Shown here: positions 26,257 to 36,428 of the stretch, piece after piece
Numbering within the stretch: the first letter of the stretch is position 1
How the letters are laid out: each line of letters opens with the position of its first letter
Source: a virus
Direction: 5' to 3' (one strand)
Virus record (IMG/VR): IMGVR_UViG_3300035703_000193
Location: 1-39,409 of that record
DNA length: 39,409 bases
Notes under the pieces: generated by a model
Told to the model about the DNA's origin: nothing
Databases searched by the model: none
Seen by the model: only the letters and a program-made list of their open reading frames with translations
Made by a program: the position numbers and the translations under genes

Positions 26257-26348
26257 AGCAAGGTGGCGGAATTGGTAGACGCAAGGACATCGTAATTGAT
26301 TATAAAAAGGTCTCCGAAAAGTTGCAGGTTCGAATCCTGCCCTTGTTG
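26257..26348 (+). ncRNA. tRNA-like element 1 (leucine-tRNA-like arms, enlarged anticodon region)
   Basis: Acceptor AGCAAGG (26257-26263) pairs with CCTTGTT (26341-26347). The D arm has the class II type GGCGGAATTGGTAGACGC. The T arm is GCAGG-TTCGAAT-CCTGC at 26324-26340. Between D and T arms there are 41 bases instead of about 23-33. The only possible anticodon stem (26285-26288 with a GTCT at about 26309-26312) closes a loop of about 20 bases, so no normal seven-base anticodon loop exists. No CCA is encoded. tRNA-like, not a standard decoding tRNA. Confidence 0.65.
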
Positions 26349-26360
26349 CCCTACAAAAGG

Positions 26361-26422
26361 CAGACGTTAAACCAGAGTGAAATAGATGGTGGTTGTATTT
26401 CTAAAGTCTGTATTGTACCACC
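26361..26422 (+). other. Possible H-type pseudoknot between tRNA-like elements
   Basis: CAGAC (26361-26365) pairs with GTCTG (26406-26410), and GGTGGT (26388-26393) pairs with ACCACC (26417-26422). The second helix crosses the first, giving a pseudoknot. The pairings are short and no second copy shows covariation, so confidence is low. There is no gene in this stretch. Confidence 0.35.
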
Positions 26423-26424
26423 AA

Positions 26425-26519
26425 AGCAAGGTGGCGAAAGGTATCGCCAGGGCTAACCGTGTACGCAAGCTACCCAACGTTGAGCGGTGCACAATCGGGT
26501 TCGATTCCCGACCTTGTAT
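26425..26519 (+). ncRNA. tRNA-like element 2
   Basis: GCAAGG (26426-26431) pairs with CCTTGT (26512-26517) as a six-base acceptor stem. The D arm is GGCG-AAAGGTAT-CGCC (26433-26448), and the T arm is TCGGG-TTCGATT-CCCGA (26495-26511), a perfect five-base stem with the canonical TTCGATT loop. The 46 bases between D and T arms fold into no standard 5+7+5 anticodon arm; a bulged GGGCT/AGCTACCC stem closing a 13-base loop is possible. D and T arms differ in sequence from elements 1 and 3. Confidence 0.55.
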
Positions 26520-26528
26520 TTTTTAAAA

Positions 26529-26638
26529 AACAAGGTGGCGGAATTGGTATACGCTTAAGGGTTTGGTGGAAGTCGCGACGTAAAATTAAAAAACAACCTT
26601 TAAAATCCACCGTGCAGGTTCGAATCCTGCCCTTGTTA
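26529..26638 (+). ncRNA. tRNA-like element 3 with pseudoknotted anticodon region
   Basis: AACAAGG (26529-26535) and CCTTGTT (26631-26637) form a perfect seven-base acceptor stem. The D arm region 26531-26554 matches element 1 at 23 of 24 positions and the T arm to acceptor block 26614-26637 is identical to element 1. The 59 bases between the arms contain TTAAGGGTT (26555-26563) pairing with AACCTTTAA (26595-26603), and GGTGGA (26565-26570) pairing with TCCACC (26606-26611), which cross. No usable anticodon loop is present. An internal GTCGCGAC palindrome also lies in the loop. Confidence 0.6.
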
Positions 26639-26652
26639 CAAAAACAAAGCAA

Positions 26653-27425: not shown

Positions 27426-27433
27426 TATATTTA
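27426..27433 (+). promoter_or_regulatory. Promoter -7-like box before RNA element 1
   Basis: TATATTTA resembles TAnnTTTG with the last base changed. It lies exactly four bases before the first base of the 5-prime hairpin of the RNA element, the same distance as the box at 28935 to the second copy. The shared spacing makes a transcription start at the hairpin likely. Confidence 0.55.
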
Positions 27434-27437
27434 CGTA

Positions 27438-27538
27438 TTCTTTAAATCGAAGTAGAGGTCAATTTAAAGAACTTTGAAGCAAGTCCTACATTGTTTCACT
27501 TTGCCCCGATGAACCTCTACTCATTGGGGCATTTTTTT
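27438..27538 (+). ncRNA. Three-hairpin RNA/attenuator element, copy 1 (kissing-loop type)
   Basis: Hairpin 1: TTCTTTAAAT (27438-27447), 14-base loop, ATTTAAAGAA (27462-27471). Hairpin 2: GAAGCAA (27476-27482) with TTGTTTC (27491-27497). Hairpin 3: GCCCCGATGA (27503-27512), 8-base loop, TCATTGGGGC (27521-27530), then T7: an intrinsic terminator. Loop 1 holds AGTAGAGGT (27451-27459), complementary over 9 bases to ACCTCTACT (27513-27521) of the terminator loop. Copy 2 at 28947-29043 shares the layout with compensatory changes. The terminator ends 6 bases before the ATG of the adenine methyltransferase gene. Confidence 0.85.
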
Positions 27539-27544
27539 ATACTT

Positions 27545-28516
27545 ATGCAAATATTAAACATTTATGAATCGCACGAACTCGAAAGATGCGAGGTAGTTAT
27601 TAAACAGGGCTTACAAACCTTCATTGAGGTTGGACAGGCATTAATGACTATTAGGGAAAAACGATTGTATCGAATTGGTTTTAAAACGTTTGAGGATTAT
27701 TGCGTTGAAAGATGGTCGATGGACAAAAGACACGCAAACAGATTAATACAAGCGTCTGAAACAATTAGCAATTTGGGACCCATGGGTCCCGTTTTACCAC
27801 AAAGCGAAAGACAAACAAGACCCCTTACAAGTTTGGAGCCTGAAATTCAAAAAGAGGTTTGGACAGAAGTTGTCAAGACACATGGTGACAATATTACAGC
27901 TGCAAAGGTTCAAACAGTTGTTAATAATTGGAAACCTGTTGATATTGAAGTTAAGGAGGCTAAAGCAAATCCAATGTTTTCTCCAGACATTGAGGTAATT
28001 ATTGAAGACAAAAAGTCGAAAGCTCACGTTTCAAATAATTCAGGCGAAAACGAATGGTACACTCCCGAATGTTATATAGAAAGTGCAAGGCTTGCAATGG
28101 GTAGCATTGATTTAGACCCCGCTTCGTCTGAAATTGCAAATCAAACGGTTAATGCAAATTTATTTTACACTCAGGAAGAAGACGGGCTTTCTAAAGAATG
28201 GTTTGGTAATATCTGGATGAATCCACCCTATTCACAACCATTAATATTTCAATTTATATCTAAGTTAGTTGAATCAAATCAAGTAAATCAAGCCATTGTT
28301 TTGGTAAACAACGGAACAGAAACAAAATGGGGTCAATTATTAATGAAGCATTCAAGTGCTGTTTGCTTCCACCAGGGTAGAATTAGGTTTATTGATAAAT
28401 ACGGGAACTTAGGGGATGCACCTTTACAGGGGCAAATGATTTGTTATTTAGGTTCTGAGGTAAACAATTTTGTAAACGAATTTAATCAATATGGAACAAT
28501 CTTACGAAAGGGGTGA
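27545..28516 (+). CDS. Phage N6-adenine DNA methyltransferase
   Basis: 323 residues from ATG 27545; an upstream in-frame ATG at 27491 lies inside the structured leader and is rejected. Residues 20-70 resemble a DUF3102-like helical domain (FIEVGQALMTIREKRLY). The C-terminal part has EWYTP at 170, DLDPAS at 189-194 and the catalytic NPPYS at 226-230, the set found in phage adenine methyltransferases. It would modify phage DNA and help escape restriction. Its 3-prime end overlaps a PD-(D/E)XK-like gene by 26 bases, and it is preceded by the attenuator-like RNA. Confidence 0.88.
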   Translation: MQILNIYESHELERCEVVIKQGLQTFIEVGQALMTIREKRLYRIGFKTFEDYCVERWSMDKRHANRLIQASETISNLGPMGPVLPQSERQTRPLTSLEPEIQKEVWTEVVKTHGDNITAAKVQTVVNNWKPVDIEVKEAKANPMFSPDIEVIIEDKKSKAHVSNNSGENEWYTPECYIESARLAMGSIDLDPASSEIANQTVNANLFYTQEEDGLSKEWFGNIWMNPPYSQPLIFQFISKLVESNQVNQAIVLVNNGTETKWGQLLMKHSSAVCFHQGRIRFIDKYGNLGDAPLQGQMICYLGSEVNNFVNEFNQYGTILRKG

Positions 28517-28913
28517 TATAAAATTTAAAGGCAGGGCAAAGCAGTTGAATAGCTTTTCTGGAATGATAAGAAGAAGGAATATTACGCCAACCGACATTGA
28601 TGGAATCATTGATTATGGTGGAAAGGCTTTTGTTATTCTTGAAGGAAAATACGGAGATGCTGAATTACCAAAAGGTCAAAAAATGGCACTTGAAAATTTA
28701 GCAAATACAATTCTATCCGCTAATAAAAGAGTTGTTGTAATTATTTACAGGCATTTTGTTCATGATACAAATAAGGATATAAATGTATCAAAACAATTGG
28801 TAAGCGATATTTATTTCAAAAGAAAATGGGATAAAATTACAGTTGAAAAAAATGTATTAGAAGTCATAGAAATGTTTGAAAACCATTGCGATAATAATAA
28901 TTATCAAATATGA
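28491..28913 (+). CDS. PD-(D/E)XK-like nuclease domain protein
   Basis: The 140-residue product has a DIDGIIDY stretch (D37, D41) followed by FVILEGKYG with E51 and K53, the arrangement of a PD-(D/E)XK catalytic core: acid, then E-x-K on the next strand. The size and a following Q-K-x-x-L helix suit a small endonuclease or nuclease-like protein. The start overlaps the adenine methyltransferase gene by 26 bases, suggesting a translationally coupled pair. It could be a resolvase, a restriction-like nuclease or a replication/repair enzyme. Catalytic activity needs testing. Confidence 0.65.
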   Translation: MEQSYERGDIKFKGRAKQLNSFSGMIRRRNITPTDIDGIIDYGGKAFVILEGKYGDAELPKGQKMALENLANTILSANKRVVVIIYRHFVHDTNKDINVSKQLVSDIYFKRKWDKITVEKNVLEVIEMFENHCDNNNYQI

Positions 28914-28934
28914 AAAACATATAAATAAATTACT

Positions 28935-28942
28935 TATCTTTA
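28935..28942 (+). promoter_or_regulatory. Promoter -7-like box before RNA element 2
   Basis: TATCTTTA differs from TAnnTTTG only in the last base and ends four bases before hairpin 1 of the second RNA element, as at 27426-27433. It lies in the AT-rich gap after the PD-(D/E)XK gene. Confidence 0.55.
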
Positions 28943-28946
28943 ATCA

Positions 28947-29043
28947 TTCTTTTGAACGAGGTGCAAGTCATTCAAAAGAACTTCGGGACAATATCCGCAT
29001 TGTTTCAACTAACCCAGTAGCCTTGCACCTGCTGGGTTTTTTT
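28947..29043 (+). ncRNA. Three-hairpin RNA/attenuator element, copy 2 (kissing-loop type)
   Basis: Hairpin 1: TTCTTTTGAA (28947-28956), 14-base loop, TTCAAAAGAA (28971-28980). Hairpin 2: GGGACAA (28985-28991) with TTGTTTC (29000-29006). Hairpin 3: AACCCAGTAG (29011-29020), 8-base loop, CTGCTGGGTT (29029-29038), then a T run. Loop 1 AGGTGCAAG (28959-28967) is complementary over 9 bases to CTTGCACCT (29022-29030). The block CATTGTTTCA is identical to copy 1 and equally placed. The T run ends about 10 bases before the ATG of the replication-initiation-like gene. Confidence 0.85.
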
Positions 29044-29053
29044 ATACATTTTT

Positions 29054-29983
29054 ATGAATAAGTTAAATAACAAAATCAAGGATAATTTTACTATTATCCC
29101 CAATGACATTATCCGAAACAAAAGCCTGAGCGACCGCGCCCGCTTCATCTTTTGTTACATGGCTTCCATGCCAGACGATTGGAAATTTTATCAAGGCGCA
29201 ATGGCAAAGGAACTTGGATACACAAAGGACACTTTGAGGAAATACATTGAAGAACTTTTGACAACAGGTTACCTTCATCGGGAACAAAGAAGGGAAACGG
29301 GTAAATTTGATAGTTACGATTATACCCTGAATTTTACACCGAGTGGTAAAAAAGCCGACACGGTAAAAATCCGCAACGGAGAAAAACCGACACGGGAAAA
29401 GTCGGCACTAATAAATAAAGACTTGGAACAAAGAAAGATTATAACAAATATAGACTTTGAACAAAGTATTGAAAATCCAATGGATTTTACCGACTTTACA
29501 AAAGTTGAAACAAATCTCCAAAGCCCCAAAGTAAACCCTTTTACCTTGATTGCAAATCTTGAAAAAGAAAAAACTTCGGGTAAAAAAGAAAAAGCCGACC
29601 GCCAGCCCTCCCCCACGTACGCCGCCTTCACCGTGTTTTGCCAAACGTTTGAAGCGTTATCGGGTGCAGCGTACCCAACCGACCAGAATGGACATTACAT
29701 CATGATGCCAAAAGATGCAGGGCAAATAGGAAACCTCATGCGGTACATTGACAAAATAGATAAGCATGGCAATAGCATTGAGGCATTGAAGGTGTTTATC
29801 CAAGCCGCGTGGTCATTACCTGACAAATGGTTAAAAGCAAATTTCACGGTAGGCAACCTTTACTCCCAGGCTTCAAAGATATTTACCGCATACCAAACGA
29901 CAAGCCCAGCGGCAAAGGACAAAGCGTATAATGACAGGATTCAGGAATTGCTTGCAGAACGCATGGCAAAGTTTCAAGATTAA
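29054..29983 (+). CDS. Replication initiation/organiser-like protein with N-terminal HTH
   Basis: The 309-residue protein begins MNKLNNKIKDNFTIIPNDII and continues with the winged-HTH-like block RARFIFCYMASMPDDWKFYQ, MAKELGYTKDTLRKYIEELL, TTGYLHREQRR, which is typical of phage replisome organisers. The C-terminal part (from about 190) is a helical domain (GNLMRYIDKIDKHGNSIEAL, FIQAAWSLPDKWLKANFTVG), like the DnaD-type half that recruits host helicase. The middle is low complexity. It likely binds the phage origin; no origin repeats were identified with certainty. Transcription passes through the upstream attenuator element. Confidence 0.75.
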   Translation: MNKLNNKIKDNFTIIPNDIIRNKSLSDRARFIFCYMASMPDDWKFYQGAMAKELGYTKDTLRKYIEELLTTGYLHREQRRETGKFDSYDYTLNFTPSGKKADTVKIRNGEKPTREKSALINKDLEQRKIITNIDFEQSIENPMDFTDFTKVETNLQSPKVNPFTLIANLEKEKTSGKKEKADRQPSPTYAAFTVFCQTFEALSGAAYPTDQNGHYIMMPKDAGQIGNLMRYIDKIDKHGNSIEALKVFIQAAWSLPDKWLKANFTVGNLYSQASKIFTAYQTTSPAAKDKAYNDRIQELLAERMAKFQD

Positions 29984-29998
29984 TAAAACCAACCAATT

Positions 29999-30733
29999 AT
30001 GAACAATTTACCAATGATTGCAAACCGCGTGGAAGAGAAAATACAAGATGTGCAGCTTGTTATCCAAAACCGCGAACTTAGAATTTTTAAAACAGGGACA
30101 AAGGAAGCCATTCCAAAGATTGCCCAAACCTTAAGCCAACTTCTCCCCGTGTATGGCATTGAGCCAAAGCCCGAACACTTGATGGAGGTCACCGAATTTG
30201 TATCAAATTACAAATTACTTGCCGTCGATGAAATTAAACTGGCATTTGAAAAGTTTGCCAAACAAGAACTTGATATTAACGACCATAAACTTTATGGCAA
30301 AGTTGACCTTCATGCTATTGGGCGAATAATCACGGCGTATATAACGTGGAGGCAAAAGATTTACTTTGCCATGGATTCCGATTTGCAGGCGAAGAAGGAA
30401 GAAGAAGAAAGGATTAAACGCCTGGGGAAAGTGGCTGAGGAATACGATAAGGACTTTGATAATAAGCTGAAAAACTTTCAAAAGCCGTTGGAAGAAATAC
30501 CCGTATTTTGGTACGACGAATGTGTAAAGCGTGGTTATATCAATGAATGGGGCGAAGGAGAAAAGGAAGCCTTGTGGGCTGAGGCTCAGGAAATGGCAAA
30601 GAACGAAAAGCCAGATTCTGATAATTTAATTGATCGCAAGAACCACATGAGGAAAATTGAGGAAGGAAATATGCCACGCGCCCGCGCACTTGCTTACAAG
30701 TTAGCCGTCTGGCGCAAGGTGTTATTAAGATAA
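29999..30733 (+). CDS. Hypothetical replication-region protein
   Basis: A 244-residue helical, charged protein (MNNLPMIANRVEEKIQDVQL ... KLAVWRKVLLR) with a KAxxExEERIKRLGKVAEEY-like coiled segment (about 127-160) and many aromatic/charged residues. Directly downstream of the replication-initiation-like gene (15-base gap) and upstream of a strong terminator, so they form one short operon. It could act as helicase loader or co-initiator; no P-loop is visible, which argues against a DnaC-type ATPase loader. Family not recognised. Confidence 0.55.
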   Translation: MNNLPMIANRVEEKIQDVQLVIQNRELRIFKTGTKEAIPKIAQTLSQLLPVYGIEPKPEHLMEVTEFVSNYKLLAVDEIKLAFEKFAKQELDINDHKLYGKVDLHAIGRIITAYITWRQKIYFAMDSDLQAKKEEEERIKRLGKVAEEYDKDFDNKLKNFQKPLEEIPVFWYDECVKRGYINEWGEGEKEALWAEAQEMAKNEKPDSDNLIDRKNHMRKIEEGNMPRARALAYKLAVWRKVLLR

Positions 30734-30757
30734 GTTTCATAATTTGGTTTTGTTTTG

Positions 30758-30791
30758 GTGGGGTATAGAAATTATACCTCACTTTTTTTTT
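30758..30791 (+). terminator. Intrinsic terminator after the replication operon
   Basis: GTGGGGTATA (30758-30767) pairs with TATACCTCAC (30773-30782) over 10 bases with one G-U pair and a five-base GAAAT loop, followed by nine T (30783-30791). A strong rho-independent terminator for the two-gene replication operon, directly before the next promoter region. Confidence 0.88.
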
Positions 30792-30792
30792 A

Positions 30793-30851
30793 ATTTATTT
30801 TTGTAAATATTTTTTTCTTTCAATATTTAATATTAAATTTACGTATTGAAA
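30793..30851 (+). promoter_or_regulatory. 59-bp promoter/operator element, copy A
   Basis: Matches 36370-36428 at 58 of 59 positions (difference at 30817/36394). It contains TTGTAAATAT, then after 26 bases ATTTACG as a -7-like region; a TTTAATATTAAA palindrome; and an inverted repeat TTTCAATA/TATTGAAA that spans the -7 region. The gene at 30872 starts 20 bases after it. Overlap of palindromes with the promoter suggests regulated transcription by an unknown phage or host factor. Confidence 0.75.
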
Positions 30852-35395: not shown

Positions 35396-35429
35396 ATGTC
35401 CGCGTCAACCGATGCGGACATTTTTTTTT
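35396..35429 (+). terminator. Intrinsic terminator
   Basis: ATGTCCGC (35396-35403) pairs with GCGGACAT (35414-35421) around a 10-base loop, followed by a run of T to 35429. It closes the operon that ends with the 49-residue gene. Confidence 0.88.
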
Positions 35430-35438
35430 ATTTTATCA

Positions 35439-35482
35439 TTGTAAATATTCTTTATTATAAATAATTATATATATATTTACAA
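35439..35482 (+). promoter_or_regulatory. Promoter/operator with inverted repeat
   Basis: TTGTAAATAT (35439-35448) and its exact reverse complement ATATTTACAA (35473-35482) flank 24 AT-rich bases. Copies A and B have the same TTGTAAATAT followed by ATTTAC at the same 26-base distance. It lies upstream of the glucosaminidase-like gene at 35517. Confidence 0.65.
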
Positions 35483-36369: not shown

Positions 36370-36428
36370 ATTTATTTTTGTAAATATTTTTTTGTTTCAA
36401 TATTTAATATTAAATTTACGTATTGAAA
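36370..36428 (+). promoter_or_regulatory. 59-bp promoter/operator element, copy B
   Basis: Matches copy A (30793-30851) at 58 of 59 positions. The changed base (G at 36394) extends the inverted repeat to nine bases GTTTCAATA/TATTGAAAC. It precedes the gene at 36467 by 38 bases. Confidence 0.75.

Follow-up and report, generated by a model that had tools for sequence, protein, structure and literature searches.

Kissing-loop RNAs of about 100 nucleotides at the heads of operons in uncultured phages, most likely of Bacteroidota

The IMG/VR virus record IMGVR_UViG_3300035703_000193, analysed here over its whole length of 39,409 bp (positions 1-39,409) and called the window below, encodes portal, terminase and replication proteins of a tailed phage and carries, ahead of two of its genes, two similar stretches for which a three-hairpin RNA with complementary loops had been proposed. 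It raises the question whether such an RNA is real, how far it extends beyond this phage, and what it does in the position where it is found, between a promoter and a start codon.

Both copies, at 27438-27538 and 28947-29043, have the sequence and the coordinates given in the original prediction, and free-energy folding of each copy alone returned the three hairpins that it had drawn (-33.8 kcal/mol for copy 1 and -31.0 kcal/mol for copy 2). As it had also described, each copy begins 4 nt past a -7-like box (TATATTTA and TATCTTTA, respectively), stem 1 differs between the copies by three compensatory pair changes (pairs 7, 8 and 10), and the block CATTGTTTCA has the same sequence and the same placement in both. 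The nine-of-nine complementarity of loop 1 to the terminator loop is present in the sequence of the two copies, as AGTAGAGGT/ACCTCTACT in copy 1 and AGGTGCAAG/CTTGCACCT in copy 2, and with the loops shuffled a Watson-Crick run of 9 nt in one copy has a chance of P ~0.0002. The features of the region are as follows.

27426-27433, + strand: -7 box TATATTTA of element 1, by sequence, ending 4 nt before stem 1
27438-27471, + strand: hairpin 1 of element 1, stem 27438-27447 / 27462-27471, loop 27448-27461, by fold and covariation
27451-27459, + strand: kissing strand AGTAGAGGT of element 1, core GTAGAGG at 27452-27458, by fold and covariation
27476-27497, + strand: hairpin 2 of element 1, GAAGCAA/TTGTTTC, by fold and covariation
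27503-27538, + strand: terminator hairpin (27503-27530) and T run of element 1, by fold
27513-27521, + strand: kissing strand ACCTCTACT in the terminator loop of element 1, core CCTCTAC at 27514-27520, by fold and covariation
27545-28516, + strand: gene led by element 1, with a C-terminal DNA N-6-adenine methyltransferase (Dam, PF05869) domain
28491-28913, + strand: second gene of unit 1, whose homologues in loci L017 and L018 have an element of their own
28935-28942, + strand: -7 box TATCTTTA of element 2, by sequence, ending 4 nt before stem 1
28947-28980, + strand: hairpin 1 of element 2, stem 28947-28956 / 28971-28980, loop 28957-28970, by fold and covariation
28959-28967, + strand: kissing strand AGGTGCAAG of element 2, core GTGCAAG at 28961-28967, by fold and covariation
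28985-29006, + strand: hairpin 2 of element 2, GGGACAA/TTGTTTC, by fold and covariation
29011-29043, + strand: terminator hairpin (29011-29038) and T run of element 2, by fold
29022-29030, + strand: kissing strand CTTGCACCT in the terminator loop of element 2, core CTTGCAC at 29022-29028, by fold and covariation
29054-29983, + strand: gene led by element 2, a replication-initiation / DnaD-like protein (HTH_36)
29999-30733, + strand: second gene of unit 2
30757-30783, + strand: ordinary intrinsic terminator after unit 2

In unit 1, element 1 is followed by the Dam gene and then by a small gene; unit 2 consists of element 2, the replication gene, one more gene and the ordinary terminator, which probably ends it. 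This terminator, GGTGGGGTATAGAAATTATACCTCACT, recurs with a variable stem in related loci (L009 about 7060, L018 about 6600). The later transcription units of the phage carry no element; later units on the + strand without it are preceded by a second promoter-like motif, at 30797-30845, 35425-35480 and 36375-36420, which consists of TTGTAAATATT, an AT-rich stretch and then AAATTTAC or ATATTTAC.

Relatives were sought with the replication protein behind copy 2 as a seed, which led to 80 viral loci, and any statement that an element is present at every locus applies to the lineage of this single protein. A first scan of these loci for a stem, a terminator and complementary loops gave candidates in most of them. 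A covariance model built from 27 sequences, with the loop-loop pairing left out, then returned 111 elements at 59 bits or more from the 80 loci and the window, and pattern scans brought further contigs, so that the total came to 143 elements, 74 of them distinct, in about 100 related viral contigs, with one or two elements per whole phage record. Many of the loci are near-duplicates, hence our counts are on distinct sequences where possible. Model matches on the opposite strand that overlap the promoter were read as artefacts of the palindromic stem.

The original prediction had named as its own test the existence of more copies in related phages keeping both helices, and among the 143 copies all four helices do covary. 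In the model-aligned set of 74 distinct sequences, 97.4% of the cells pair, versus 78.5% in shuffles and 37-48% with the partner slid, and each of the four helices shows compensatory variation. The kissing helix between loop 1 and the terminator loop is the most telling of them, with 99% of its cells paired and with 158 two-sided changes, zero one-sided ones and zero G-U, while all seven of its pairs vary on both sides; the stems, unlike this helix, tolerate G-U. Its covariation is an independent test, since the kiss was absent from the search model. About 20 different 7-nt words occupy the helix over the 74 elements, and a tree computed with the kissing columns left out requires no fewer than 27 changes of word. 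In 73 of the 74, cognate loops match over 7 nt or more, whereas most non-cognate pairs share 3-5 nt. It is this 7-nt core that the family conserves; the 9-nt match proposed earlier holds for the two copies of the window and does not extend to the family in its full length. The 10-bp stem and 14-nt loop proposed for hairpin 1 are present as well and can be refined, as one or two extra pairs are usual past a one-base internal loop (columns 12-23 are paired in all 74 sequences and columns 13-22 in about half), which leaves a loop 1 of about 8 nt, as large as the terminator loop, and each of the two loops frames its 7-nt core. Readings at the level of DNA, such as an operator or a recombination site, were rejected in view of the G-U-tolerant stems, of the anatomy of a transcript running from promoter to terminator and of the free replacement of words, always on both sides of the match.

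The sequence of hairpin 2 is strongly conserved. One subgroup (e.g. L005:1129, L009:3196, L024:2025) has GAGGAAA...TTTACCTC in its place and retains most of the pairing, possibly a different recognition type. The terminators are stable, GC-rich hairpins (mean -14.7 kcal/mol) with T runs of 5-10, resembling the ordinary terminators of the same phage.

We consider it near certain that we deal with a real structured RNA family. It is a large and undescribed one, of ~100-nucleotide RNAs in uncultured phages, most likely of Bacteroidota. Placing it outside the named families was justified: Rfam 15 gave no match at the elements of the window or in 14 related loci, and the best sub-threshold matches at the window (TarA, PyrR and others) were far under the cut-off, the gathering threshold of the family. 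No account of the RNA was found in a search of the open-access literature, which left most subscription papers and bioRxiv preprints outside and beside which candidate-RNA surveys of the human microbiome, kept outside Rfam, may include it. The cultured relatives Flavobacterium phage tant8-1, Croceibacter phage P2559S and Riemerella phage RAP44 have no element, and neither the region nor one element, each used as a DNA query against 50,697 phage records, gave a match. A pattern scan of 84,980 bacterial species genomes gave 9 matches, none of which scored as a full element with the covariance model, the sole weak model match being a stem-1-like stretch in L131, and 0 of 296 genomes from the order of one flavobacterial genome matched, a weak negative; these searches of bacterial genomes and cultured phages were not exhaustive. 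As to the host, the flavobacterial phage named in the original prediction is plausible, not proven. Riemerella phages have the nearest terminase, with 44% identity, and the promoters follow the TAnnTTTG pattern of Bacteroidota; on both grounds the host most likely belongs to Bacteroidota.

The surroundings of the elements are as uniform as their structure. A -7 box lies 3-6 nt upstream of stem 1, mostly 4, in all 60 distinct elements examined, and as in F. psychrophilum TAnnTTTG occupies -12 to -5 (PMC9723704), stem 1 should begin at +1. At the other end, a start codon on the same strand lies 5-26 nt beyond the end of the model, with 9 nt the commonest distance, in 143 of 143 elements, and none of the 143 is free-standing or stands before a gene of the opposite strand. 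The genes behind belong to about 16 unrelated families, including replication proteins, DNA methylases, HNH-helicase and AP2/HNH endonucleases, and as many as 15 different words occur within one such family, which makes the word independent of the gene. An element is found upstream of the replication gene in 79 of 79 loci with upstream sequence, the 80th locus holding 75 nt upstream; in the non-adjacent cases listed it lies 270-2065 nt upstream, with the replication gene closely behind another coding sequence. A TANNTTTG box between the terminator and the gene occurs in 0 of the 74 distinct elements. Nor was a conserved antisense promoter of this type found, since an opposite-strand TANNTTTG falls within the element in 2 of 74 cases and the positions are unrelated.

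Each copy in the window stands at the head of a transcription unit, with a start codon shortly past its terminator. This placement, on which the original prediction had not remarked, points to a cis-acting leader, although in compact phage genomes a nearby downstream gene is partly expected. We regard the role of a cis-acting leader as well supported, and it seems to us rather probable that the cassette of promoter, ~100-nt kissing-loop RNA, terminator and start codon controls read-through into an early operon, the elements being probably built-in switches for phage replication and DNA-modification genes. Transcription would start on the first base of stem 1 or close to it, as the position of the -7 box suggests; hairpins 1 and 2 would fold, and the 7-nt word of loop 1 would pair with its complement in the terminator loop, a pairing shown by the strict Watson-Crick covariation. 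The terminator would then either release an RNA of ~100 nt or be passed, and in the latter case the gene 5-26 nt further on would be made. As no other promoter was found between, the downstream gene should depend on this read-through, and a factor acting at the strongly conserved hairpin 2 would be the probable control point.

That the contact matters is shown by its strictly Watson-Crick character. The kissing core, inside the 8-nt terminator loop, is geometrically compatible with a closed terminator, and because the kiss can coexist with the closed hairpin it could either promote or hinder termination; the mean energies (-14.7 kcal/mol for the terminator hairpin versus -9.0 kcal/mol for the word duplex) do not decide the direction. 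We lean to a kiss that would slow the closure of the terminator and so favour read-through, because loop 1 would be ready before the 3' arm of the terminator and because the downstream genes seem to be read-through-dependent. The kiss may also serve the structure and not the regulation, and an alternative antiterminator pairing with the terminator stem was seen neither in minimum-energy folds nor by eye. More tentatively, one may think of a new class of genetic switch: the hairpin at the 5' end of a nascent RNA would govern the terminator of that RNA through a loop-loop kiss, a freely exchangeable 7-nt word would make each switch private, and the whole would be a portable cassette for the heads of early phage operons.

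Other explanations have to be weighed against the same observations. A promoter, a hairpin at the 5' end and a terminator are also the anatomy of a stable small RNA gene, and the conservation of hairpin 2 in sequence is what a protein site would show. Were the element a free-standing phage RNA of that kind, the kiss tying its ends for stability or for a protein-binding fold and the gene being near by genome compactness only, the downstream operon would be left without any other promoter that we could find; given moreover that the element tracks operon heads and has a same-strand start codon in every one of the 143 cases, we hold this to be unlikely. A slightly smaller chance is given to a processive antiterminator after the manner of put, in which the folded nascent RNA would stay on the polymerase and make it resist its own terminator and later ones: a structured RNA that measures ~70-100 nt, stands at early promoters and occurs twice per genome in many records does recall HK022 put, but put consists of two hairpins with no described kissing contact and no terminator of its own, whereas the covarying contact here targets the terminator loop itself, and an ordinary terminator closes unit 2 after two genes, with later units having no elements.

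The words themselves invite a different idea, that of self-recognition in trans, by which released RNAs would bind nascent ones carrying the same word and hold expression down when the copy number rises or on superinfection, after the example of ColE1 or pT181, the words serving as separate specificities. About 20 words, all strictly complementary and without G-U, the 15 words within one downstream family, hence independent of the gene, and the fact that two elements of one record never share a word would all suit it. Each RNA can, however, meet its own pairing intramolecularly, a conserved antisense promoter of the TANNTTTG type was not found, and the word columns evolve no faster than the terminator stem (6.9 versus 7.1 steps), and zero shared words in 15 distinct pairs are expected by chance (P about 0.3), which makes the idea improbable. 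For the same reasons we rejected two related candidates: privacy of words within a genome, for which chance accounts, and an accelerated diversification of the words, which a few near-identical pairs show and the overall tree comparison does not. Most improbable of all appears a stabiliser of the 5' end or a translation leader, where the hairpin at +1 and the kiss would protect the mRNA, a U-rich tract would aid ribosomes and the 'terminator' would barely terminate. Stem 1 begins at the predicted +1, the start codon comes directly after the T run, and PMC6847099 describes the mRNAs of Bacteroidota as naturally devoid of Shine-Dalgarno sequences, all of which would agree with it; the GC-rich terminator hairpins with T runs of 5-10 are nevertheless like the ordinary terminators of the phage.

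The cis-acting leader that we prefer has the general anatomy of an attenuator with an intrinsic terminator, that is a promoter, an RNA and a terminator ahead of a gene with no promoter between, and it can be compared to several known systems. The gene behind the pT181 leader is a replication initiator, and like the repC attenuator of that plasmid our element is a leader in which a 5' hairpin and an intrinsic terminator precede a gene, a replication gene included. Loop-loop kissing is central in pT181 as well (PMC4878617). There the kiss is made with a separate antisense RNA, and here within one RNA, to the terminator loop; the pT181 antiterminator pairs with the terminator stem, a pairing absent here from the folds inspected; and for the antisense RNA, a defining feature of pT181, no counterpart was found with promoters of the TANNTTTG type, which lie on the opposite strand in just 2 of 74. 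In ColE1, RNAI and RNAII form 7-bp loop-loop helices that vary with complementarity preserved, as our helix of the same length does, but the ColE1 kiss joins two RNAs from opposite strands and ours is intramolecular. The put RNAs of HK022, putL and putR, are structured, stand at early promoters of the phage and affect read-through (PMC9378689), and our element shares these places and, in many records, the number of two per genome. Binding to the beta' zinc-binding domain and processive antitermination characterise put, which has two hairpins; in our element hairpins 1 and 2 stand at the promoter, but with a third hairpin, the terminator within the element, and with the kiss. In lambda, early genes also lie behind a terminator that must be passed, by N/nut antitermination (PMC9378689); lambda uses the N protein at nut sites, and no such protein or site was identified here. 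The element would thus work somewhat like the pT181 attenuator and like put, but it differs from pT181 by a defining feature and from put by anatomy, and Rfam 15 has no family that it matches.

For this group of Bacteroidota phages it would be a first regulatory RNA to be described. Its compact and simple anatomy and unusually clean covariation make the effect of a tertiary loop-loop contact with a terminator on transcription directly testable, the about 20 naturally matched 7-nt words are ready-made and possibly independent RNA parts, and the replication gene together with the element can serve as a marker for a widespread group of uncultured Bacteroidota phages.

Some of the small genes led by elements (in L079, L062, L025, L100 and L126) look like AP2/HNH homing endonucleases, in L079 by Pfam and in the others by sequence similarity, and such genes might help to move elements between phages. 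Upstream of element 1, at 26257-26640, the window holds three tandem tRNA-Leu-like sequences, each of which has GTGGCG towards its 5' side and finishes with GGTTCGAATCCTGCCCTTGTT or a variant of it; the first alone was called by Rfam and none by ARAGORN, and they may be degenerate or unusual tRNAs. Matches to tRNAs lie upstream of elements in L006, L009 and L030 also.
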